The notes beneath the pieces were generated by a model that worked only from the letters and a program-made list of their open reading frames with translations, had not been told where the DNA came from and searched no databases. Both the position numbers and the translations under genes were made by a program. A DNA stretch of 64,000 bases from Volutella citrinella. Lineage: Eukaryota > Ascomycota > Sordariomycetes > Hypocreales > Nectriaceae. Location of the stretch: the NCBI GenBank assembly GCA_034401135.1, contig JAWZSP010000007.1, positions 4,216,001-4,280,000 on the forward strand, in the 5' to 3' direction. Positions 10,324 to 46,536 of this stretch are shown one piece after another; positions within the stretch are counted from its first letter, which is position 1, and each line of letters starts with the position of its first letter.

Positions 10324-10648
10324 GAGTGGGGTTAGATTAGAGTTAGCTAGGCTATTCTACTTCTACTATATAAGATTAAGCTATAAGCTAAGCTTTTTAA
10401 TTATTTAAAATAAAAAACTTAGGAAATATATAAAAAAAAGTAAGATAAGTAATAAAGAAATAATAAAGAAAAGTAATAAGGCTTTAAATAAGAATAATAT
10501 TATTATAAAAAAGAAAGAGGTAAAATATTTAAAAAAAAGAAAAAAAAAGTTTTTTTAAAAGTTTTTATTTTTAAAAACTTTTTTAAATATAAAAGCAGCT
10601 ACTTAAGCTCTTACTTTAAATAAAGATAAAGCTAATAAACTAATTAAA

Positions 10649-11442
10649 TATAATAATTAAGTAGGTTCTAATTATATAAACTTAATATAATATACTAAGA
10701 GTTTATATTAATAGATTTAATATAATATATATTAAGCTTAACTAGTTTAATAGTAATTTTAAATATAATAACTATAATATTATATTAAGTAATAATTAAT
10801 TAAAATAATTAAAGTAACTAAGTTTATTAATAAGAATAATAAGCTTAAATAAATATTAATAATTATTAATATCTTTTATAAAAAACTATTATAAAGTAAC
10901 TAACTTTAAATAAAATATAAAAAATTATATAACTTTTAGTAAAAAAACTTTATAAAATAAACAAAATCTAAATTAATTATTAGTCTAATTAGATAGAAAG
11001 AAAGGAGTCTTTAAATAAAAAAAAGATAAAAGAAGGGGGAAAATTCTTATTAATTTAAAGCACTAAGCAAATATATCTCTTTTAAGCTACTGACCTAAAT
11101 GCCCTAAACTACTAATCCGGCCCAACTACTAATTGCCGCTAATATAATCCAGCTGCCACACACTAAGTTATATTAATAGCTAAAGAGCTACTTATATTAG
11201 AGATATACTCTTCACAGTCTATATAATTTATCTAATCCTTTATTATATAGCCTGATATCTGCGCGCTTGATATTCCCTTTATCAGTCGCGTGGGCTCGAC
11301 CGCCTGTGCTAGTGTCGGTCGCTTGTTCGACTGACCCTTCGTTTGTCAGTCGCGCTCTTGTTAGTCGCTAGGCCAAAAGTTTATCCATCCTATATGTTCC
11401 ATGCCGTGCGTCAGGGCCTATGTATTAGCGCGGGTCCTGACA
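10649..11442 (+). mobile_element. RIP-mutated family-2 LTR, split by a family-1 LTR
   Basis: 10649-10824 aligns with the first 180 bases of the intact LTR at 31882, with C-to-T and G-to-A changes throughout. 11163-11442 aligns with the rest and ends GGTCCTGACA. Between them lies the family-1 element (10825-11162). The last 170 bases are less mutated. No target duplication is obvious at the outer ends. The AT-rich 10324-10648 before it shows nothing recognisable. Confidence 0.75.
10825..11162 (+). mobile_element. Family-1 LTR, RIP-mutated copy
   Basis: About 338 bp that aligns end to end with the clean copy at 24575-24908. The differences are almost all C-to-T or G-to-A. It is flanked by CTAAGTT on both sides, matching the host LTR's CCAAGTT, so it inserted into the family-2 LTR with a 5-7 bp duplication. 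Confidence 0.7.
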
Positions 11443-21949: not shown

Positions 21950-22280
21950 TATTAGTAAGAATAACAAGCTAAATAAATACTAGCTATTATTAGTATCTCT
22001 TATAGAAACCTGCTGTAAGGTAACTAAACTTAAGTAAAAAGCAAAAAATTATATAACTTTTAGTAAGAGAACTTTATAAGATAAATAAAATCTGAATTAA
22101 TTAGTAGTCTAATTAAATAAAAATAAAAAAGTCTTTAAATAGAAAAAGATTAAAGAGAGGAGAAATTCTTATTAATCTAAAGTACTAAGTAAACTTACTT
22201 TTTTTAAACTACTAACTTAAATACTTAATTAATTAATCTAGCTTAACTATTAAATATTAATATAATCTAGCTGCTATATA
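21950..22280 (+). mobile_element. Family-1 LTR, RIP-mutated copy
   Basis: It aligns over its whole length with the clean copy at 24575-24908. The changes are mostly C-to-T and G-to-A, with shared tracts such as GAAACCTG and AAAAAGATTAAAGAG. No clear target duplication is visible. It begins 71 bases after the FAD monooxygenase stop. Confidence 0.7.
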
Positions 22281-24301
22281 CTCTTTTTCTATAGTTTATA
22301 TTATATTTTTATAATTAGGTAAATTATATTTTAAATAAAAATATCTAAGCTAAGACTAACTATTATTTATTAATATTTTCTATTTTTATATCCTTATTTT
22401 TAATATCTTTTATATTCTTATTTTTATTTAATTCATATTTTATTATAACTTTTTATAATACTAGATTCTTTTTAATTAGATTGTAATTATAATACTACTT
22501 TACTTAGTTAAGCTAGGGCCTAGCTTTTTAGGTTATTTATAATTATATTACTTTATAAAGAATAAAGTCTTATTAATTAGAGTAAATTAGATTAAGTAGA
22601 ATAAATAGTACTTATATATATATTATAATACTAGAGACTAGAAACTTATAAATAGTTTACTTTTTAACTAAGTATAGTAATACTATTTTATTTAATAAGT
22701 ATATTATTACTTTAATAACCTAGCTAAAAGGCTAATCTTTTAAAACTTCCTTAGTCTTTTTAATATTATTAATAATATATAATAGTTTAAGTATTTTAGT
22801 AATCTTAAGTATAAAAATAGTAAGCTTTATTAAAAGTACTTAGTTAGTCTTAGAGTTAATTTACTGCCCCTTTTTATTTATTTTAATATAAAGTTTCTAT
22901 TTAACTTAAAAGCTTAAGCTTAATACTTATAAATTAAGTTATAAAGGTTTTAGTATTACTATTAATCTTTTTAAAGTTAATAATTATAATTATTTAAAAA
23001 AGCTATAAAAAGTACTATACTTTATAATACTTAATAGTAAAGGCTAATCTTATAAATTTAATTTAGTTTATAAAAGTATTAAGCTATATAATCTCTTTTT
23101 AAATTAATTATAATTCTTTTTAATACTTAATTATAAAGTAGCTTAATATATTTAAGTATTAAATATAGATATAAGTAGGGCAGTTTTTATATTAATAAGG
23201 GACTGCTAACTTATTAAATTTAATTATACTAAAGTAATTAATTATTAATAAAAAGGGTTAATTAAAATATAGCTAATTATAGCTTAGAATCTAAGTATTA
23301 AGTTATTAAGTATATCTTTTATTAAGAGTTAAAAAGTTAAGATTAATAGCTAACTATTTTTAAAAAGAGCTAGAGACTTTATAAAAAGTGTTTTAACTAG
23401 ATTAATTAAACTTATTATATTAGTATTAAATTCTAATTAAGGTTATTATAGTATAAAGCTTTTTTAAATAACTTTTTAATTCTTTTATATAATAAGCACT
23501 TTATTAAATATCTTAATATAGACTTGTACTTATTAAGTAGTTAATAAAATAAAAGACTATAAGAAATTAATATTACTTAGATTTAGTCTAATTAAATAAA
23601 GTAATATTAAAAAGAAAATATATTAAAGCTTATTAATTTTAAAATAGAAATAGCTATTAAAGCTAGTAAAAAAGTAATTATCTTTATAAATTTTAAAAAT
23701 ATTAATAAACTTAATAATATAGTATATATAAAAGATTAAGTAAGGAATCTACTTCTTAATAATTTTTAAAAGTATAAAGCTAAGATTTATAAAAGTTATA
23801 AAAATAAGCAGAGTATAAATAATATCAAGGTTCTTATTATAGTTTTTAATAAGGTAATTAATAGTAGTTAGGACTTAGTCTTAAAGTTAGAATTAAAATA
23901 TAAGCTTATATTTTAAGTAAGTATAATTAATTATTAAGATAGCCTTTTTTATATATTTATTAAAATCCTTTAAACTATAGCTTTATAAGTTATATAATAT
24001 TTAAAAAAAGTAAAAAATATTAAGAAATCTATACTTAAAATTATTAAGCTAATTATATAAAAGTAAAATAATTAGCTTAAAGTTAAAAAGTATTCTAAGA
24101 AAAGTAAGAGTCTTATATTAAATATAAATAAATTATATAATATAAGAGCGAATCTATTTTTATATAGTATTAAAAAAGTAAATATAACTAGCTATTTAAT
24201 TATATAGAAATAAACCTTAATAAGAATTAGTAAAGTTAATTAAATTAATAAAAAAAAGCTTGTCTTTTATAAAGTAGTAGATTTAGTTAAAAGTACTTAA
24301 A
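22281..24301. other. AT-rich, RIP-mutated DNA
   Basis: About 2 kb with very little G or C and stops in all frames. It is presumably a mutated transposon, but no domain can be read. Confidence 0.6.
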
Positions 24302-25068
24302 TATCAGAACCTAATACTAATATATAGTAATAAAAAAATCACTTAGTATAAAATAATATATACAGAGTTCTAAAATATAAGAAGTTATATATACTAATTA
24401 TATAAAAAGCACTTAAAGTACTAGCGCTCTTAGTGCTCTTAGTATAAAGAGTTAATAAGTACTTAGCAAGGAGTACTAGCGCTCTTAGTGACTTTAGAAA
24501 GGATAATCTAGTATAAGTAGAAGTCACTATAATATAATAAAAAGGACCAGCCTTTTTAGCTATTAATAACACTTTGTTGGTGAGAATGACAGGCCCAAAC
24601 AAACACCAATAATTGTCAGTGTCCCCTGCAGAAACCTGCCGTAGGGTAACTGAACTTGGGCGAAAAGCGAAATTTTGCGTGACCTCCAGCAAGAGAACCT
24701 CGCAAGATAAACAAAATCTGAATTGACCAGCGATCTGATCAGACAGAAATGAAGGAGTCCCTGAACAGAAAAAGATTGAAAGAGGGGGAAAATTCTTGTT
24801 GATCTCAAGTACTGAGCGAACCTGCCCCTTTTAAGCTACTGACCCAAACGCCCAATTGACCAATCCAGCCCAACCACCAAAATGCCAATGTGATCCAGCT
24901 GCCATACAACACTTAGTTACTATAATCCACTTACTTATTACTAGATATAATAATATATTTATCTTATATACTAATCAACGCTCAGTATTATGCCTTAGTA
25001 TAATTACTAATATAAACCCTAGTATAATTACTACTATTTATATAGTTAGAACCAGCCCAGTTATTATA
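24302..25068 (-). mobile_element. Family-2 LTR, RIP-mutated and split by a clean family-1 LTR
   Basis: 24302-24568 starts TATCAGAACC and matches the same end of the copy at 46092. 24909-25068 matches the remainder, including CAACGCTCAGTAT and AGTTAGAACC, and ends TTATTATA (TCGTCACA in the clean copy). Both parts are heavily C-to-T/G-to-A changed. The inserted family-1 LTR is not. Confidence 0.7.
24575..24908 (+). mobile_element. Solo family-1 LTR, not RIP-mutated
   Basis: A 334-bp GC-normal island inside AT-rich DNA. It begins TGTTGGTGAGAATGACAGG and ends CAGCTGCCATACA (TG...CA). ACACTT flanks it on both sides (24569-24574 and 24909-24914), which indicates insertion into DNA that had already been RIP-mutated. 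It has no coding capacity. Confidence 0.75.
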
Positions 25069-25529
25069 AATTAAATAGGTTTTTATTAAAGCACTCTTTT
25101 AAACTATTTACTATTATCTAGCTTATTATTAAGATCTTATTATAATCTTTTTTAATAATATTTATATACTAAATATTAATTAAATAGTCTTTTATACTTA
25201 GTAGTAATTATAGTTTTTATAAAGCTTTTAAGGCTCTTAATTAATAACAAGTTTACTTTTATATTCTTAATAAAAATTATAAAAAAGAGGCTTATAAAAA
25301 GATAGCTATTACTTTTTATAATAAGTATAATATTCCCCTTATCTAGGTTTTTAATAATAAGTAGCTTAAGTATTCTTTATTATAAAAGTAATACTTATAA
25401 AATTATTAACTATTTTTATATTATTATTAAAAATTAAAGTAAAGAGTTATAAGAGCGCTCTATCTTTTTAAACTATTTTTAAATTAAGTAGTAATATATA
25501 TATAAAAGGATAAAATAGTATTAAATATA

Positions 25530-26105
25530 AAAAGATTAAAAAGCACCCTTTTAATTAATTTGCTTTTATCTATCTTATTATTAAGATACTACTATACTCT
25601 TTTTTATTAATATCTATAACTTAGATATTAGTTAAATAGGTTCTTATTAAAGCACTCTCTTAATTAGTTTACTTTTATTTATCTTATTATTAAGGTACTA
25701 TTATACTCTCTTTTATTAATATTTATAACCTAGATATTAGCTAGATAGGTTCTTATTAAAGCACTCTTTTAATTAATTTACTTTTATCTATCTTATTATT
25801 AAAATACTATTATATTCTCCTTTACTAATATTTAAAACTTAGATATTAACTAGATAGGTTCTTATTAAAGCACTCTTTTAATTAATTTATTATTATCTAT
25901 CTTATTATTAAGATACTATTATACTCTCTTTTATTAATATCTAAGACCTAGATATTAGCTAAATAAGTTCTTATTAATATACTCTTTTAATCAGTTTACT
26001 ATTATCTATCTTATTACTAAGGTATTACTATACTCTTCTTTATTAATATCTAGGACTTAAATACTAACTAGATAGGTTCTTACTAAAGCACTCTCTTAAT
26101 CTATT
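25530..26105. repeat. 109-bp tandem array, about 5 copies, AT-rich
   Basis: The tract AGGTTCTTATTAAAGCACTC recurs at 25639, 25748, 25857, 25966 and 26075 (first G of the GG or AG), exactly 109 bp apart, with a degenerate unit starting near 25530. A related single unit lies at 25078-25190. Units differ by scattered C/T and G/A changes. Confidence 0.9.
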
Positions 26106-27226
26106 TATATAACAGGCTGCTTTTATAAACTATAATTCTAAAAAGCAGTATATACAGCTTGTATTTATAATGGGTATTATATAAGCAATTTACTAAAAGG
26201 TTAAAGTAGTTAGTATATTATTTATAACCCTACTATATAATAGAGTTAAAGCGCTAATATAATAAGAATTTATCTAATTAATACGAAATTTTAATATTAA
26301 TATATATATAGACTAATTATTCTATATATAAAGTTTGAGCTATTTTAAGCAAGGTTAAGTCTTTGAAACTAACCCCTTCTTAATATAGTGAAACTGATCC
26401 CTGTCTTTTTCAGGTTGGCTAACCCTAGTTAGGGAATTTTATTGAAACTGACCTCAATTTCACTGAAACTAGTAGTTAGACTTCAACCGCACTAGGTGCA
26501 GATCCAGTGATGCTGAGTCGGAGACCTCGGGGGCTGAGCCGGGATCGCCATTTGGAGCCGAGTGTCTGTCGTCTCAGGAGCTTCCATCGCGGCGCCATTC
26601 TCGTCGCAGATCCTCACAGGCATATGAAGTGCTGCAAGGTACCGGTACGACCAAGGCGCAGGCACCGAAATTTCTGGCAGTTCCTGTTATCGCGCCAAGG
26701 CTGACTTCAATATACAGCCAAAGACACCTAGAATCATTTCCAAGTCTTTGGGCTGCAGTTAGTTGAGAGGCATCCTTGTACTTGTTCGAGTATTTTTAAT
26801 GGGGGTGGTTCGATTGATGAGTTGAAGATTCCCGCGCACTTGGTTTCTGGCTAGAGCGTGACATTTATTTTGAGGTTCTGGGCAACCTGACTTGGGGCAT
26901 TGCTTATCACAAGGATCTTGGCCACCCTAAAGTTCGCAAGCCGCGAACTGAGATGAATCCCGAAGGGCACTACAGAAGGATTCCTTCTTCTCCTCGTCCA
27001 TCGTTAGCTATGAAGAATTGAGTGATAGCTGGACAGTCTGTTTGGTTTTACTTAATAGTGATTCTGCTATTGCGCATGTCTAGATAGATGGTGTTGCCAG
27101 TCATTAGAATGATGTCGGGAACAGATCCATATGAAACTGCGCAATCAGTTAGACGAGAAATTATTACCAAGCTAATTAAGTTTTTTCATAGCTTTGTTCT
27201 ATTAAGCGCCTGCCACAAATCGTTCG
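26106..27226. other. Edge of the AT-rich block; no gene
   Basis: AT-rich to about 26340, then normal composition. Four GAAACT(A/G) motifs occur between 26360 and 26475, and an inverted telomere-like CTAACCCTAGTTAGGG at 26419-26434. No coding frame is supported. Confidence 0.4.
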
Positions 27227-29020: not shown

Positions 29021-30140
29021 ATGGCCACGCCCAATCTTCCCACCGAGCAGTGGGCTCAGGTTGTTGAAGCACCCGGAGGATGTAAGCGTTCCATCTCTCT
29101 AATCTGACTCTGAATGGTCACTCACCGCAAAAATCATAGCTGTAACCTACAAGAGAGTCCCTGTGCGCGCACCAGGCCCTGACGAGGTCCTGGTCAGCAT
29201 CAAGTTCTCTGGTGTTTGTCACACGGACTTGCATGCCATAATGGGTGACTGGCCGTTGGAGAGGAAGATGCCTCTCATCGGCGGCCACGAGGGCGCGGGC
29301 ATCGTTGTCGCTAAGGGCGGGCTAGTCTCCAACATCGAGATTGGTGACCATGTAGGCATCAAGTGGCTCAACGGGTCATGTCTCGACTGCGACTTTTGCC
29401 TTCAAGGAGACGAGCCGCTCTGCCCCAAGGCACTCCTGTCCGGTTACACCGTCGACGGCACGTTTCAGCAATATGGCATAGCCAAGGCTGCACACGTCAC
29501 CAGAATCCCTTCCGAGTGTGACCTTGAGGAGGTCTCCCCGATACTCTGTGCAGGACTCACCGTGTACAAGGGTCTCAAGGAGGCTGGCCTTCGCCCGGGG
29601 CAGTATGTTGCGATAGTCGGCGCAGGCGGCGGGCTTGGGTGCTTTGCTCTTCAGTTCGCCAAGGCCATGGGCATCCATAGCATCGCCGTTGACACGGGGG
29701 AGGACAAGCTCAAAGTCTGCAGAAGCCTGGGCGCATCGGCGACTGTCGATTTCAAAACTTCGTCCGACGTCGCCCGCGACGTGAGGGCGGCTGTCCCGGA
29801 CGGCTACGGGCCTCACGCGGTTCTCTTGCTTGCAACCCGCGATGAGCCATTCCAAGAGGCTCACAGCTATGTCAGGCCGCACGGTAGCATTGTTTGCATA
29901 GGAATGCCAGCCCAGGGGTTCCTTAAAGCACCGTTATTCGAAACTGTCGTGCGAATGGTCAACATCAAGGGCAGCTATGTTGGCAACCGGCAAGACGCAG
30001 CCGAGGCCATTGAATTCTTTCGACTCGGACTGATCAAGGTGCCGCACAAACTTATGGGCCTCAGCCAGCTCCAGGATGTATACAGCAAGATGCTGAAGGA
30101 CGAGGTGGTTGGCCGGTATGTAGTTGATACAAGCGGATGA
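29021..30140 (+). CDS. Zinc alcohol dehydrogenase (ADH1-type)
   Basis: Reduces acetaldehyde to ethanol with NADH (or the reverse) in the cytosol. Exons 29021-29081 and 29140-30140 (intron with GTAAGC and CATAG ends) give 353 residues, close to yeast ADH1. Catalytic zinc ligands are in GVCHTDLH and GGHEGAG. The structural zinc lobe has four Cys ([17 protein letters not shown]). The coenzyme motif is VGAGGGLG. The tail GRYVVDTSG is typical. There is no damage. It faces a pyruvate decarboxylase pseudogene 365 bases downstream; together they are the two steps from pyruvate to ethanol. It is the only intact gene of the four-enzyme pyruvate block, perhaps because it had no second copy similar enough to attract RIP. 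Substrate preference is inferred from family and neighbours. Confidence 0.93.
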
Positions 30141-30504
30141 TGTCTCATGTACTAGGTCTCAGTAAAGGACCCTAGTTTACTACAGAGTTCGGTTTGTTGC
30201 GATCTTGATGTAGGTCGTTTAGGGTTGCTATATGTATATTCAATTCAACAGTAAATGATCACGCCTGGTTGCATGGGTTGGCCTGAAGAATGAACACTCT
30301 AGTCCCTTAGTTACTTAATATTTATAAAGCCATAGGTTAGCTACCTGGACTTGTAAGGAGAACACGAAGATTGAAATTAAAATTAAAAAATCCTTTATAA
30401 ATTAAACAACAAGGCCTTCCAGGGTAAGCTAAGATCTCAAAGACTGAATCCCAACACCTGCAAGCAGCAGCAGGGGGCGACCCCTGTATAAACAATCTGG
30501 CTCG
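30141..30504. other. Convergent gap between ADH and PDC
   Basis: No gene. It carries the 3' ends of both genes. Confidence 0.4.
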
Positions 30505-32652
30505 TCAATTTTTGGCCGGACGCTGTGCATTAGACGCCGCAACAAAATGGCCCTAAGTAATCAACTCCCTGCTATAATCATCCTAGTAGAGATTGCACTT
30601 AATGAGGGTCAGCCCCTTAGTATGCGCAGTTGCTCTGTCAAGAGCGCGAGATAATTTATCAATAGTCTGGGCTTTAAGGCCAAGAGCATGCCCTCTGCCC
30701 TCCTTAAAGTTAAATATCTATATTAGCTGCGCATAGTCCTAGTTCTAAAGCCAGTTATATAGTCTATTATAGATCTCAACCTCGATTATATAGCCTTGGT
30801 TATTTATTAGAAGTATAATAATAGGTATATAGAACTGCACTATTTGCAAGATCTCTTAAATAGTTATTTAAAACGCATTGTTACTGACTATAATAACAGT
30901 CCTCCTTGCTAGTTTGGCCAGGGAATAGCTAAATAAGGCAGGAATTGTCTACCTAATATAGCCTTATTATATCTCGATCTTAAAATCTGCCCCCTTTAGA
31001 AAGCGTAGCTAGATGCTATTAAACTACGAATTGCTTATATTAGTAAACACTATTGTCTTTAAAGTCAGGAGGAGCTGGGTCTGCTTTATAAGCTCCCTTT
31101 TAATAAAGTTGCTATATTTATTAAAGCAGTATATTAAAAGAGAATCAGAGCACAGCTAGTTATACTTAACTATTATATAGTTATTCTAGCTAACTGCCTT
31201 AGCTAGAGTGGATAGAAAATCGCATAATTAGATATAGCTAAAATAGGCACTTAGTTTTATTATAGTTATACTATTAAAATTAATAACTAGCTATAAAATA
31301 CTAAGTAAAGCTATTTACTTAATAATACTATAGTTAGTAAAGATAGTACTAATATAGATAAGTATATCCGCCTAGTTAATAATAGTATTAGCTATAAGTA
31401 TACTAACCTAGCCCTAAAAGATACCTATAAACTAGGTATAGTCCTCTAAGAACAAGCTCTTTACTACTAGCTGTAGAACTATAGCACACCTAAAAGCCTC
31501 TGCTAGACAGAGCAGCTCCTTCTTAGCGCTAGCCCTTTATATCTTAGGCTTAATAAGAATAATAGGCTTCTTTATAATCCTTAAGTATATTAATACCTTA
31601 GCTATAGCAGCATCTAGGGTCGGCCTGTCAGTCGGGGTCAGCTTAAGAATAGCACTTATAGGCCTAGGTTATACATATAGCTCCCCGGACAGGTTTATAA
31701 GCAGCTCGAGATAGGCCAGCTTCTGCTTTAAGAGCGCTATCCAGATAGTCCAGTTAATAGCCTCTAGCGCTTAAGTAGTAGTATATATAGCTATAGCACT
31801 GCAGGTAATAGCCTTAGCTATCTCGAACTAGTAGTTTAAGTTATACTTACCTAGTATATAGTAGAGGAGATAGTAGCCTAGTGTGACGATCGGGTAGGTT
31901 CTAACTGTGTAAACCTAGTACAATGTACTGGGGGTTTATATTAGCAGTCCGACATGGCGTATACTGAGCTTTAAATGAGTTGGCTGTGATCCCAGGCGTG
32001 GCGATCACACTGTCACGTTAGGTAATAGTCAATCGAGGTGATTGAGGTAACCAAGTTGTATTGATAGCTGAAGAGCTGCTCATACTAGATGTGCACTCTT
32101 CACAGGTCTATATAGTTTGTCTAGTCCTTTGTTACGTGGCCTACTGCCTGTCCTTTGTTCACGGAGCGTGGTATGCCAGGGAGCGCAGCGCTCTAGGAGC
32201 GCCGTCGCTCCCTTGTTCATCGCTCCCATTCTGATTGGTCCGTAGTCACGTGGGTGGGGCGCTGGTTCTTCCGTTCCGAGCGGCTGTACCGCGGGTCCGG
32301 GCACCGTGCAGTAGCGTCAGGTCCTGACACCTAGGTTATTAGTATTAGGCGCTTTACTAATAAAGATAACAGGCAGGTTCTCTGTATAGGCACTCTTAAT
32401 ACTATTAAAAACTAAGAATACACCTATGCTATATATAATAATACAGGCAGCTGCTCTATAGGCGCGTGTATAGCCCTTGGAGGCAAGGGAGTAATTGAGT
32501 TTGTTTATGCAGCCCACCTTGGTTAGTAATGGGTGCGCCTTGAGCTTGTCAAGGAGAATAAGGTTGTAGTCTCCTAGGATAATAAAGTGATAGCGGATCC
32601 CGATCTAGGCAAGCCTCTTGGCGAGATAGTCGCTGACTGTGAACGAGGCCAT
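30505..32652 (-). pseudogene. Pyruvate decarboxylase, RIP-mutated, split by an LTR
   Basis: Thiamine-diphosphate enzyme that converts pyruvate to acetaldehyde. From ATG 32652 the frame reads ASFTVSDYLAKRL, a TAG where Gln or another residue stood, GDYNLILLDKLKAHPLL and SAYTENLPVIFIS, then a solo LTR (31882-32329). The same frame resumes with LGKYNLNY, ALLKQKLAYLE, CAIVLQLVVKSLFLEDY and LINNQGYIIEVEIYN, and ends GHFVAASNAQRP at 30505. The length equals a full PDC. The GDG...N motif has become SNN (GGN-GAN-GGN to AGT-AAC-AAT), so the cofactor site is lost. Many Gln and Trp codons are TAA or TAG. The changes are almost all G/C to A/T. The first 50 codons and the far 3' end are less mutated. RIP needs a duplicated target, so another copy probably exists or existed elsewhere. 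Confidence 0.93.
31882..32329 (+). mobile_element. Solo family-2 LTR with 5-bp target duplication
   Basis: 448 bp, from TGTGACGATCGGGTAGG to GTCAGGTCCTGACA. CCTAG flanks both sides (31877-31881 and 32330-32334). Composition is normal while the flanking PDC pseudogene is AT-shifted, so it landed after most RIP. Removing it and one CCTAG restores the PDC frame exactly. Confidence 0.93.
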
Positions 32653-33510
32653 GATTTGTATAGGCGAAGCTTTCACTGGTAACTGTAGAGGTGCTGCTGG
32701 GAGAAGCTGGAGCCACTGAGCTGCCTTTGGGTGATCGGTTGGCCATGCGGTCGTCATTTATGCCAGGCAGGAGAGGGCGAGCTTGTCGAGATGTTACGTG
32801 GATCGAGTGAGTCTGTGTACACTCATAGCTTTTCTCTGGCCACTGAGGATATACAGCCTTGGATGATATCACGATGCGCGACTAATTGTCTTAGGCAGAC
32901 TGGCAGAACACATGCAAGCGTCGCTATTAGAATGATGCGCGATGCAAATTGCCGACTCCGTAGCATGACAGAGGCATGATGATAAGGGCCACCAGCTGAT
33001 GGCATAAGATCCTAAAGGTGTTGCCATCATCTAGCCGACAGGACATGAATCACATCATGCCCTGGAACATGATATAATAACTCCCGACACTAGATGCAGA
33101 CGCGGCGCAAAGGCAAAGTTGATGGTGGGCCTCAGAGAGCCCTTATTAGTGAACATCGCTGACGGAAGTCAAAGTTACAACCTCTAAGATAGTCCCCGTC
33201 GGACAAGCGGAGAGCTCCGCGTTCCGGGTGGTGTCATTAATAGCCGACTAGCGAAATCCACCCCTGAGAGGTTCGCATATAGGCAATGCCCGAGGCTACT
33301 ATAAGTCCGTTTTTCTCTTAATTATGGCTTATAATTATTAGATACTGCTTTAAACTGCCCTTACTAGATATTATATACTATAGATTTAAATAACCTAGCT
33401 ATTTATACTATCAGCTTAGAGCTATAGAATAAGCAGGCTTTTTTAAACTAAGGATATATAAAAGCTAGCTTATATTAAATACTATAAATAATATAGAGAC
33501 TAAAGGACTA
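32653..33510. other. Divergent promoter region of PDC and PEP synthase
   Basis: Normal base composition to about 33300, then AT-shifted. Only short frames are present. It may also hold a mutated first exon or leader of the PEP synthase (an ATG at 33324 is out of frame with the main frame). Confidence 0.45.
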
Positions 33511-35877
33511 CTAGTCTATAACTTAGAGGACTTATTATATAATAATAGCCCCTAGGTTAGTAGTAAGAACTCTTCTCTAAGTAAGATAATTAGAGCCCTA
33601 GGCTTAAAAAGTATTATAGTACTGCCTAAGTTTATAACTATATTTAATATATACTAGCACTTTATTAATACTAACTATATTTAAGGTAAGATAGACACCC
33701 TTATTATATAGTAATAAGACGGGTATATTATGCTAGCTAAGGCAGGCTATATAGTATATAGTTTATTCTTTTATTATAGTAGCTAGCTAGTAGACACAGC
33801 TTATACTATTAAAGTAAGCTATTATAAGCTATTTATAAAGCTTAGTATTAAGAACCTAAGTATTACTATATACTTTAGTACTATAGTTAAAGACCTTTTA
33901 AATATAAGCTTTACTAACTAATAAGAGACATTCCTTAATATCTTAAGTAAGTAAGCTCTTCTAGATACTTACTAATACTATTATATATTACTTTTTACTA
34001 ATAGGGCTATTAGTTACTACTAGGTTAAAGGGTTTAATTATACTAATATTACCCTCTTAGTTAGTATCTAAGCTATAGTATACTCTGACTTAAGTAGCTT
34101 AAGAATTTTATTTTTTATTAATACTAAGAGCAGCTTTAATAAGGTAATACTTATTAATACTGCCTAAGGGCTTAATAAAAACATTATCTAGGGTACTATT
34201 AACTTAGATAAGTATTAGGTCTTTAAGCTATTACTTTTAGACTTTAACTTATTTTTTATCTTAAGTAAAAGATATAGTAATAAGGATATTAAGATAATTT
34301 ATAATAACTAGGATAAGTATATATAAAATATACTTATTTTAAAAGCTAAGAGGGCTGCCTTTATTCTTAGTAATAGTAAGATCTTCTAGCTAGCTTACTA
34401 AGAGTATATTATTAAGAATTATTATAGCTGCTTTATAAATATAGAGTGGGCTAAGAATAGTATTATAAGCCAGCTATTTATTATCTAGGCTTAGCTTAAG
34501 ATAGTGTACTTATACTATAATACTACTGTCTTTAAGACCTATTTAATAAGTAATAAAGGCTGCTTTTTAATCTTAAGCTTTTTAATTAGTAATAAGGCTG
34601 TCTTTAAGCAGCTCTACCTAATAGTATCTACTAAGAATATTAACTAGTTTATTAATAACTTAATTCTAATAACTAAGGCTATAGACTCTAATTAAGTGCT
34701 TATTATAAAATATACTACTATTATTATTACTAATTATAGCAGGCGCACTTTATATACTATTATTATTAGCTATAAGTTAAGTATTCTAGCTATAATAAGT
34801 ACTAAAAACACTATATACTTATTATATAGTAGCTAGAATATAATTATATCTTATACTAAAAGTAATATAAGCTTTATATATAAAGGTATCTTAGATATTA
34901 TAACTTAGATAGTAGACTTAGTTAACTTGTTTTAAGTATATACTAAGATTATACTTAACTTTATTAACTTAAGCACTGCTTTTTATTAATAGCGCCTCCT
35001 AGCTAATAATATCAGCTTTATCTATATAGAGTTTATTATAATTAATACTATCTAGGTCTACTTTATAGCTCTTATTTACTTTAACTAGCTTAGAAATACA
35101 GATATAAAGTAAAAGATATTATAGCTAATAGTTAGCTATAATATTAAGCCTAACTACTTTATTAATAAGCTATCTTATAGCCTTATAGCTCTTTATACTA
35201 TTATTTACTTAAAGCTAGTAATTATCTATATAAGTAACTTTAAGATAAATAAGTATATAGGGCTTATTAATAGTATATAGTTTAAGATTAAAAAGGATAA
35301 CTTTATATTAAGCTTTTATAATACTTTATACTATTACTTATTATTATATAAAAAAGGCTTTATACTTAAATATTATATAGTTAAGTAGCTTTATAAGAAA
35401 ATAGGCCTAATTAATACTATTATTATAATCCCTTTCTACTAGACTATTAATAAGGCTAAAAAGGTTATTAATATTATAATTAATAATAAGCTCTAGTATA
35501 GTAAGAACGGCCTGGAGGTCTATATTATATATAAGATTCCTTTTAATATTATTCTAGCCTTGAGCTTTATTAAGCACTTTAATAGCTTCTCTATTAGCTT
35601 TAATAACTTAATACAGCTAACTCTTAGTATTAATTACAACTTAAGTAAGCTAGCTAGCCTGTTTAATAAGCAGGATGAGGTTATTAAGTAGATAATTGCT
35701 TGTATTATCTCAGTTACTTATAAAAAGGGATATAAGATCGGACTCTACGGCTAGGCGCTAAGCGACTACCCTAAATTCGCAAAGTTCTTAGTTAATATAG
35801 GTATTAACTCTATCTTAGTAAGCCCTGATAGTTTTATTACTATTAAAAAGCATATAGTAGCTACTAAGTAGTTATAA
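33511..35877 (+). pseudogene. Phosphoenolpyruvate synthase (PpsA/PPDK family), RIP-mutated
   Basis: PEP synthase turns pyruvate and ATP into PEP, AMP and phosphate. A single frame of about 786 codons, riddled with TAA/TAG, spans the whole enzyme without an intron; E. coli PpsA has 792 residues. Readable blocks in order: the N-terminal ATP-grasp (SSKNSSLSKIIRALG, from GGKNASLGEMIRxLG), QVKGFNYT, FNLFFILSKRY and EWAKNSIISQLFIIQAQ; the phosphohistidine domain; and the C-terminal barrel EVYIIYKIPFNIILALSF, FSISFNNLIQLTL, then GYKIGLYGQALSDYPKFAKF and NSILVSPDSF. The catalytic His of the swivel domain is Tyr (RTLYT, codon 34753-34755), and the active-site Cys in GxCGQ is also Tyr. Both fit C-to-T/G-to-A. 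The family is common in bacteria and archaea and uncommon in fungi, and the intron-free reading fits a gene gained from bacteria. Confidence 0.93.
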
Positions 35878-36350
35878 ATACAAGGCGCGGGTTAGTGCAG
35901 GGCGATAAATAAAGCTATTGCAGTTATATTTTAAGTGTATTAATTAAAAAGTATCTGAGACTTATATAACTAGAGTTTTAAGTATTGCAGCTTTAATATT
36001 TATTCGTTAACGATTCTATACTATTCTCTTATATAAGAATGCTTTTTACTATATTAAAACATCTACTGTAATAGTGAATTGCTGTGTTCTGAATACCCCT
36101 CGTGGTGGCCCGCCAGAGTGAGATAAGGAGACGCTGTTACCGAAAACAAAGGACATGTTTCGACTCAAATATTATGCCAGAACCAAACTTATCGGTGCCT
36201 CCTACCTTTTGATATATAGCGCAACGGTTATCTTTAGTTCCACAATAGATCAGGTAAAATCAACTCTGAAGAATATTGCCATTAACTTAAGTAGACTCCC
36301 AACAAATACATAAACCTCAATCTGTTATACAGCGCCCTACCCCACCCTAC
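35878..36350. other. Convergent gap between PEP synthase and LDH
   Basis: AT-shifted to about 36060, then normal. No gene seen. Confidence 0.4.
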
Positions 36351-37386
36351 TCAGTAGCTATGATGGATCCTTTTAAGAGCCCTTTTCAGCTCCACAGCTG
36401 ACCGGGCTATGCTGGACTCTTCCTCGCTGTCCAGAGGTCTCCGCACGGTGCTGATAACTCCCTGTCGTCTGATGATAGCAGGAAGGCTGAAACAGCAATC
36501 GAGTTCTAGCTGGTAATAGCTGACAGGGCGAACGTCACCCTTATCCAGGAGAATAGATAAGCAGATACTAAAGATGATAGAGCCTAGCCTAAATAGAGTC
36601 GCACCCTTAGCTTAGATAATACTCTGCGACCGATTCTTATACTTATCCGCCAGCTTATCGCGTTTAAGAATGCTAGCTACGGCCGACTTATCTATAGGCA
36701 TCCTGCTGACTGTTGCAGTTAACTATGCTATAATCTGGGCATCACTGTGGACGCCTAGCACGGAGATATCTATTGTATCTGCTGCGACCTGGAGCTTGCT
36801 CAGTATATAAAGATCCCAGCGCATAAGCCCAGGGTGCACTTACTCCCGACTGCCCAGCTATTATTCCACAAAGCCGCACTGAGTCTAGATAGGTGCCCGA
36901 GCTAAAGACCTGCGAAACCGGGAGATTGGAAAGCTCATGGGCGATAGACGTGAGAAGGTCGACGGGGTTTGCCACGATGAGTAGAATGGTGTCCTGCCTG
37001 AACGGCTTCATAGACTCGACCACCTCGCGGACAATCGATATATTCCGCGATGTGTAGTCGAGGCTGGTCTGACCTGGGGGGAATTCGAGTAAGTTAGCGC
37101 TCTCAACCACTGCTTCTCATCCGCTTACCTAGGGTGTGCTTGGATCCGGCCGTCACCACTACTATGTCAGCCTTGGCTGCCTCGTTGTGAGAGGCCGCTC
37201 GCACGCGCGTGCCGTTGTTGTAACCGTAGGCGATATCGCAGAGGTCCCGGACCTGGCCGTTCCTACGATGATATTTGTGTCAACTAGCAGCAACTTACTT
37301 GCGAGGGAGCTGAGGATGAGTGCGTAGGCTGCTGCGCTACCGACTTGACCTACGCCAATAATCGCGATCTGGAATCTCGAAATCAT
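36351..37386 (-). pseudogene. L-lactate dehydrogenase, mutated
   Basis: NAD-dependent reduction of pyruvate to lactate. From ATG 37386: QIAIIGVGQVGSAAAYAL (Rossmann GxGxxG), then LLLVDTN. One base is missing near 37257-37265, after which the next frame reads RNGQVRDLCDIAYG. An intron ending in CCCCAG (GTAAGC donor) leads to QTSLDYTSRNISIVREVV, LLIVANPVDLL, GTYLDSVRLCGIIAG (substrate-binding Arg) and, after another intron, LQVAADTIDISVLGVHSDAQIIA. A TAG stands where Trp is expected, a TAA follows in ...RSQSII-stop-AKGA, then ICLSILLDKGDVRPVS to a stop at 36351. Mutations are milder than in PDC and PEP synthase and concentrate in the 3' half. Malate dehydrogenase is the alternative family, but VANPVDLLT and LDSVRLC favour LDH. 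Confidence 0.9.
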
Positions 37387-46091: not shown

Positions 46092-46536
46092 TATCAGGAC
46101 CCACGCTAATGCACCGTGCCCTGACGTGCGCACAGCCGCACGGACTCGGAAGAACTACACACCGAGCCCCACGCATCAAGCATGCGACCGACAGACAAAG
46201 GATCGGTCGGGCACTCGACCGAACCTCTTGGAGGCGGTCGTAGCAAACGACCGACGAACACAAAGGCGGTCGACGAAAGGAAGAGGAAGTACAGGTACAA
46301 CAGCTAGTAGTATATAGACCCCCGAAGAGTGCACATTTAGTATGAGCAGCTCTTCAGCTATCAATACAACTTGGTTACCTCAAATACCTATTTGACTATT
46401 ACCAGACGTGACCAGAGATCTTCCACGAAGATCGACCCCCAGCAACGCTCAGTATACGCCACGTCAGTTCTGCTAACATAAACCCCCCAGTGCATCGCAC
46501 TAGGTTTACTCAGTTAGAACCTACCCGATCGTCACA
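46092..46536 (-). mobile_element. Family-2 LTR, lightly mutated
   Basis: The reverse complement starts TGTGACGATCGGGTAGG and closely follows the copy at 31882, with a divergent central part (GTCGATCTTCGTGGAAGATC in place of other sequence). The end is TCCTGATA rather than TCCTGACA. The flanks (GGAGA and ATAAT) do not match, so it is a fragment or an old solo LTR. Confidence 0.8.

Follow-up and report, generated by a model that had tools for sequence, protein, structure and literature searches.

A probable decayed second copy of an ascomycete pyruvate-branch gene cluster, damaged by repeat-induced point mutation, in Volutella citrinella

Genes acting around pyruvate have been reported as neighbors in Aspergillus and, judging by their locus tags, stand next to each other in Fusarium; here and below, statements on published work refer to the passages considered of each paper. 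In the S morphotype of Aspergillus flavus the genes for a “pyruvate phosphate dikinase” and a lactate dehydrogenase (LDH) are adjacent (PMC6288828), and in A. nidulans ldhA is AN5842 (PMC4684279) and pdkA is AN5843 (PMC3641053), consecutive numbers from which we read adjacency. In Fusarium pseudograminearum consecutive tags are carried by LDH and phosphoenolpyruvate (PEP) synthase (PPS) genes (HYE68_008620 and HYE68_008621; PMC10791928), and by pyruvate decarboxylase (PDC) and ppsA genes (FPSE_09735 and FPSE_09736; PMC10057576). Here we report on a locus of Volutella citrinella in which an intact alcohol dehydrogenase (ADH) gene stands next to the remains of PDC, PPS and LDH-family genes, PDC and PPS being heavily altered by repeat-induced point mutation (RIP). 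It lies in a stretch of 64,000 nucleotides, hereafter the window (C7:4216001-4280000; genome of 45.1 Mb in 26 contigs).

As in the Aspergillus pair (PMC6288828, PMC4684279, PMC3641053), the same two families occur side by side at this locus, but here PDC and ADH are included and there are two diverged copies, one of them dead; moreover, residues important for LDH are missing from the LDH family, whereas the A. flavus genes were read in terms of lactate (PMC6288828). The F. pseudograminearum pairs resemble our case in the linkage of PDC with PPS and of LDH with PPS, and expression is parallel within each pair, although the two papers (PMC10057576, PMC10791928) do not point out the linkage and give no link to ADH in the passages considered, and orthology to the V. 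citrinella genes is presumed. The statement in a preliminary description of the locus, made from its sequence, that no such fungal cluster had been described went too far, as neighboring PPS and LDH genes have been published for A. flavus (PMC6288828).

Taken together with the mechanism proposed below, we consider it fairly probable that the window locus is what remains of a second copy of a pyruvate-branch gene cluster conserved among ascomycetes. Genome searches with each protein revealed all four genes, intact, within ~9 kb on another contig of the same genome (C9), so that the second intact copy anticipated in the preliminary description does exist. In the window the genes form two convergent pairs, in the order ADH> <PDC PPS> <LDH, with PDC and PPS head to head across a common intergenic region (834 bp, measured between match ends); this arrangement, with its divergent PDC/PPS promoter, had been placed correctly in coordinates and strands (Table 1). 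On C9 the arrangement is one of two divergent pairs, ADH/LDH and PPS/PDC, and the PDC-PPS-LDH core is collinear in both copies. The flanks of the two clusters have only AT-rich stretches in common, and a search for ADH relics beside the window LDH or the C9 PDC gave weak matches only, all of them in the stretch of C9 and with E values no better than 0.78.

Table 1. Features of the window cluster (positions within the window) and of the intact cluster on contig C9.
Feature	Position	Strand	Basis or remark
Window ADH (zinc MDR family), intact	29021-30140	+	Splice, open frame, 77% to C9 ADH
Window PDC pseudogene	30511-32652	-	Similarity to C9 copy; split by a repeat at 31882-32329
Divergent PDC/PPS region, no RIP signature	32653-33300	.	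Composite index profile
Window PPS pseudogene	33487-35868	+	Similarity to C9 copy; GC ~25%
Window LDH-family pseudogene	~36357-37386	-	Similarity to C9 copy; light RIP
C9 ADH		-	
C9 LDH family		+	Two introns
C9 PPS		-	796 aa
C9 PDC		+	565 aa

The identities of the C9 enzymes are supported by models and motifs. C9 PPS scores over the TIGR01418 equivalog cut-off (1097.4 vs 739.75 bits), and the window PPS pseudogene passes the cut-off of PF01326. C9 PDC is 94% identical to a Dactylonectria protein and, across 96% of its length as query, 67% identical to a PDC of N. crassa; it has all of the thiamine and catalytic motifs NELN, HHTLG, GDGAF and NN; no NCBIfam fungal-PDC model was among the matches shown, and the indolepyruvate decarboxylase model was reached with 360.6 bits against a cut-off of 946. 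The window ADH is, as described before, intact, with an open two-exon frame of 353 aa (exons 29021-29081 and 29140-30140, one intron); its best NCBIfam model is AdhP, with a score under the equivalog cut-off of that model. The differences between the window and C9 ADH genes fall mostly on third codon positions (193, vs 56 on first and 36 on second positions), a pattern that looks as in a constrained gene.

The two clusters are old rather than recent duplicates, because the ADH pair, which is free of RIP, is identical in only 71.4% of bases (77% of residues), and because the LDH and PDC genes fall on separate branches of their trees (built from the first 60 of 120 listed relatives together with the C9 and window sequences). 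In the LDH tree the window sequence is joined to that of Fusarium nematophilum (support 0.96), both being nested in a clade of F. solani/falciforme (1.0), and the C9 sequence falls together with Dactylonectria and a pair of unnamed proteins (0.99). In the PDC tree the window sequence joins two metagenome proteins (1.0) and the C9 sequence Dactylonectria and Ilyonectria (1.0), while in the PPS tree the window copy sits at the midpoint root and is hence not placed. The nearest relatives of C9 PPS and PDC are likewise Dactylonectria and Ilyonectria proteins, 92-94% identical. The window copy thus comes from a different, Fusarium solani/nematophilum-like lineage, and the clusters may be paralogs of long standing or may have arisen by transfer. 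Of the earlier proposal that the cluster was duplicated and then inactivated by RIP, the existence of a second copy stands; the duplication is old, RIP was not the main killer of the LDH gene, and C9 is no more than a candidate for the trigger. Close PDC, PPS and LDH-type genes are found solely at the window and C9 loci: the genome search gave only these two matches for PPS, the best near-full-length PDC match elsewhere is 30% identical (others are partial, 24-48%), and LDH-type matches elsewhere are partial (30-32%). For ADH, further relatives were observed at C9:819880-820848 (70%) and C1:6400540-6401331 (66%; two internal stops), neither of which has a PPS, PDC or LDH-type match in its vicinity.

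Linkage of these genes recurs in other fungi. We compared the match lists of PPS, PDC and LDH (119 of 120 rows each) for common contigs, paired by equal size, and 30 contigs recur among the listed matches: 5 with all three genes (in Dactylonectria macrodidyma, Truncatella, Thozetella, Fusarium redolens and Mariannaea), 18 with PPS and LDH, 4 with PPS and PDC, and 3 with PDC and LDH. Long contigs prove co-residence only, and one match, of 6,981-base contigs, could be due to chance. Consecutive locus tags are stronger evidence for linkage than shared contigs, and they were found for LDH and PPS (ACJ41O_005689/005690, ATERTT37_003769/003770, N7477_004655/004656 and VTI74DRAFT_2022/2023) and for PPS and PDC (FOBRF1_007282/007283). 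The linkage in other fungi that the preliminary description proposed to look for is thus found for the trio compared, PPS, LDH and PDC.

The way in which the window genes died differs between them. Relative to C9, the numbers of C>T plus G>A changes, T>C plus A>G changes and transversions are 392/85/156 in PDC, 765/92/250 in PPS, 98/103/145 in LDH and 54/115/116 in ADH, and the C>T/G>A changes lie in the RIP dinucleotide context (CpA/TpG) in 262 of 392, 565 of 765, 42 of 98 and 9 of 54 cases, respectively. An excess of C>T/G>A in this context with CpA/TpG depletion, by which we recognized RIP, is seen in PDC and PPS and weakly in LDH. PDC contains 26 in-frame stops in 563 compared codons, and its motifs HHTLG and GDGAF are changed to YYILG and SNNAF. 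PPS contains 39 in-frame stops (24 TAG, 15 TAA), and GGRTSHA and GLCGQ of the C9 protein, presumably the active-site histidine and cysteine motifs, read SRRTLYT and GLYG-stop. The window LDH shows a gap of one base when compared with C9, and its last exon contains two stops; judged from these differences, it is dead with light RIP, and RIP is not its main killer. Hence, of the three genes that had been considered killed by RIP, this holds for PDC and PPS, which do retain full-length similarity under dense C>T/G>A change (392:85 and 765:92), and not for LDH, with its light RIP, gap and two stops. Along the locus the RIP profile shows two islands, at ~30.65-32.55 kb and 33.3-36.0 kb, separated by a clean gap of ~700 bp over the divergent promoter, where the composite index is ~-0.8 to -2.0 (32601-33100) before it comes near 0 by 33300. 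PDC is in addition interrupted by a 448-bp dispersed repeat with TG...CA ends and a CCTAG flank on each side, apparently a solo-LTR-like (long terminal repeat) insertion. At least 47 matches to it, itself included and many of them partial, occur in the genome, one partial copy lying in the window at ~46311-46536 (-). The element was probably inserted after the RIP of PDC, because its CpA/TpG are not depleted, even though the composite index over it lies slightly above zero (0.27-0.94).

The locus is subtelomeric: the cluster lies ~52 kb from the terminus of C7 (C7:4305428), which is a telomere with 20 TTAGGG units within the final 300 bases. Elsewhere in the window, AT-rich and strongly RIPed blocks (GC mostly 12-26%) are present at 22001-26500, with milder RIP near 24501-25000 inside it, and at 10501-11000.

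The LDH-type member stands apart from the other enzymes. The residues that matter for LDH are Q102 and R109, in the loop, together with D168, R171 and H195. In the fungal set (the C9 protein and 120 listed relatives, n=121) Q102 is present in 1 and R109 in 6 members, compared with 79 and 80 of 80 in a bacterial control, i.e., the best 80 of 403 relatives confirmed by patterns outside the loop (32-37% identical). D168 (115/121), R171 (121/121) and H195 (99/121) are retained, each being present in 80/80 of the control. The C9 protein has H and T at Q102 and R109 and carries the other three. Bacterial L-lactate dehydrogenases thus share with the fungal family the fold family, the NAD-binding part, D168, R171 and mostly H195, but keep Q102 and R109, which hardly any fungal member retains. 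In 22 of the 121 listed members H195 is replaced, by Q in 19, by R in 2 and by E in 1, e.g., in A. fumigatus P0345. The relatives P0242 and P0258 score 271.4 and 259.2 bits, under the L-LDH equivalog cut-off of TIGR01771 (303.55), and A. nidulans LdhA (P0315, named ldhA) belongs to the family. An A. niger protein that had been retrieved by a query set including A. nidulans LdhA was devoid of LDH activity, as was its R174H mutant (PMC4684279), and we infer that this inactive protein is a member too. The protein is probably functional, perhaps on another substrate, because an alignment of 11 members shows good conservation, with a mean column identity of 71%. Its substrate must be regarded as uncertain and action at pyruvate as unproven, because the loop arginine is lost in 115/121 fungal members vs 0/80 of the bacterial relatives; this qualifies the earlier claim that all four genes act at pyruvate or acetaldehyde.

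We propose that RIP, acting before meiosis, would have been set off because the window genes resemble diverged genes of the C9 type in their coding parts, with PDC and PPS struck as the genes of closest similarity to the C9-type copy. The repeat would have landed in PDC afterwards, LDH would have decayed through light RIP and a one-base change, and the intact C9 cluster would come from the other parent or have been retained by selection. The RIP pattern agrees with guidance by a C9-like copy that is similar in its coding parts, because the islands spare the promoter, and the promoter on C9 has no more in common with that in the window than matches 9-15 bp long. A number of observations, here and in the next paragraph, weigh against our interpretation. 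ADH adjoins PDC in the window and LDH on C9, and among the listed matches PPS and PDC are on different contigs in Trichoderma cf. simile, PPS and LDH in F. falciforme, Pseudogymnoascus australis and Cephalotrichum, PDC is apart from PPS and LDH in Triangularia, and PPS apart from PDC and LDH in A. granulosus, cases that do not settle those species since the lists mix paralogs and strains. The differing ADH position, and the fact that linkage elsewhere covers PPS, LDH and PDC, would suit a chance adjacency of four unrelated genes, which we nevertheless regard as highly improbable given the same four families at two loci of one genome and the shared contigs and consecutive tags in other organisms; for PPS, LDH and PDC these contigs and tags lead us to reject it. 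As for the trigger, RIP normally mutates both partner sequences, and the identity threshold usually quoted for Neurospora is ~80%. The sole candidate partner in the genome, the C9 copy, is without RIP, the ten 1-kb bins over it having composite indices between -0.44 and -1.05, and is only ~71-77% similar: the pre-RIP identity estimated from transversions, scaled by the ADH transition/transversion ratio, is ~77% for PDC and ~75% for PPS, below that threshold, with 71% observed for ADH and 66% for LDH. The islands, moreover, miss the coding ends by 100-190 bp, RIP extending ~190 bp upstream of PPS and halting ~100-150 bp inside both ends of PDC. Another trigger, either a near-identical PDC and PPS copy now lost or spread from nearby repeats, such as the large AT-rich RIPed blocks at 22.0-26.5 kb, is therefore a serious though lesser possibility. 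No third PPS copy was found in the genome, however, even though the window copy with its 39 stops was detected; had a lost copy extended over the promoter, RIP should have reached the promoter as well, and spread from the 22-26.5 kb block would first have to cross the clean ADH. In N. crassa, RIP between repeats with interspersed homology has been described (PMC4858203), which is comparable in that, in designed tests, repeats of low overall identity were recognized, whereas here a natural, diverged cluster pair is the proposed target, with one member mutated in the assembly. That an intact copy triggered the RIP, as suggested earlier, is thus borne out for the copy, whose role as the trigger is conjectural at ~71-77% identity.

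With regard to function, we favor the view that the cluster is a jointly switched pyruvate-branch unit including fermentation, the direction of PPS being left aside. PDC and ADH would convert pyruvate to ethanol and re-oxidize NADH, PPS would interconvert pyruvate and PEP, the LDH-family protein would act on some 2-oxo acid, and a failure of respiration would activate PPS and PDC jointly from the region that lies between them. Pyraclostrobin is a blocker of respiration. In F. pseudograminearum exposed to it, PDC (log2 3.83) and ppsA (log2 3.69) were induced and grouped with hexokinase and pyruvate kinase (PMC10057576). However, with tebuconazole ppsA was up (2.25) and PDC was not listed (PMC10057576), and no shared promoter word was found, i.e., no 7-mer in 5/5 regions and no 8- or 9-mer in 4/5, shuffles likewise giving about none. 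PPS and LDH, moreover, with consecutive tags, went down in a separate experiment on this species together with PEP carboxykinase and fructose-bisphosphatase (PMC10791928). The last finding would agree with a lactate-to-sugar module, in which LDH converts lactate to pyruvate and PPS pyruvate to PEP, bypassing the mitochondrion, with PDC and ADH later or incidental additions; gluconeogenesis from lactate has been proposed for the adjacent A. flavus genes (PMC6288828), and PPS with LDH is the commonest shared pair (18/30 contigs among the listed matches). We consider such a module rather unlikely in view of the near absence of the loop arginine (6/121) and the lactate-type glutamine (1/121), present in 80/80 and 79/80 bacterial proteins, the lack of LDH activity of the related A. 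niger protein (PMC4684279), and the presence of PDC on the same contig as PPS and LDH in 5 organisms among the listed matches. More doubtful still is a version in which PPS is itself a fermentation enzyme (PEP to pyruvate, with ATP from AMP and phosphate), paired with PDC and induced by a block of respiration, in which the “LDH” is a different 2-oxo-acid reductase, and in which RIP, sensing only ~75% coding similarity to a paralog, inactivated PDC and PPS individually and left the promoter between them untouched.

Metabolic gene clusters that have a paralog damaged by RIP are a known kind of system, and the PPS-LDH part of the present one is in print. Broad literature searches, which covered only part of the matching papers, gave no account of the four-gene form, a dead subtelomeric copy, the non-canonical LDH or promoter-skipping RIP. 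The jointly switched pyruvate-branch unit that we favor would bring the production of ethanol and the synthesis of PEP together in a gene cluster that recurs among ascomycetes. The window and C9 clusters form a natural test of how much divergence can still trigger RIP. Furthermore, a “lactate dehydrogenase” without the LDH catalytic loop is annotated in many ascomycetes, which questions lactate-based readings, and the loss of this loop may explain why the A. niger homologue failed as an LDH.
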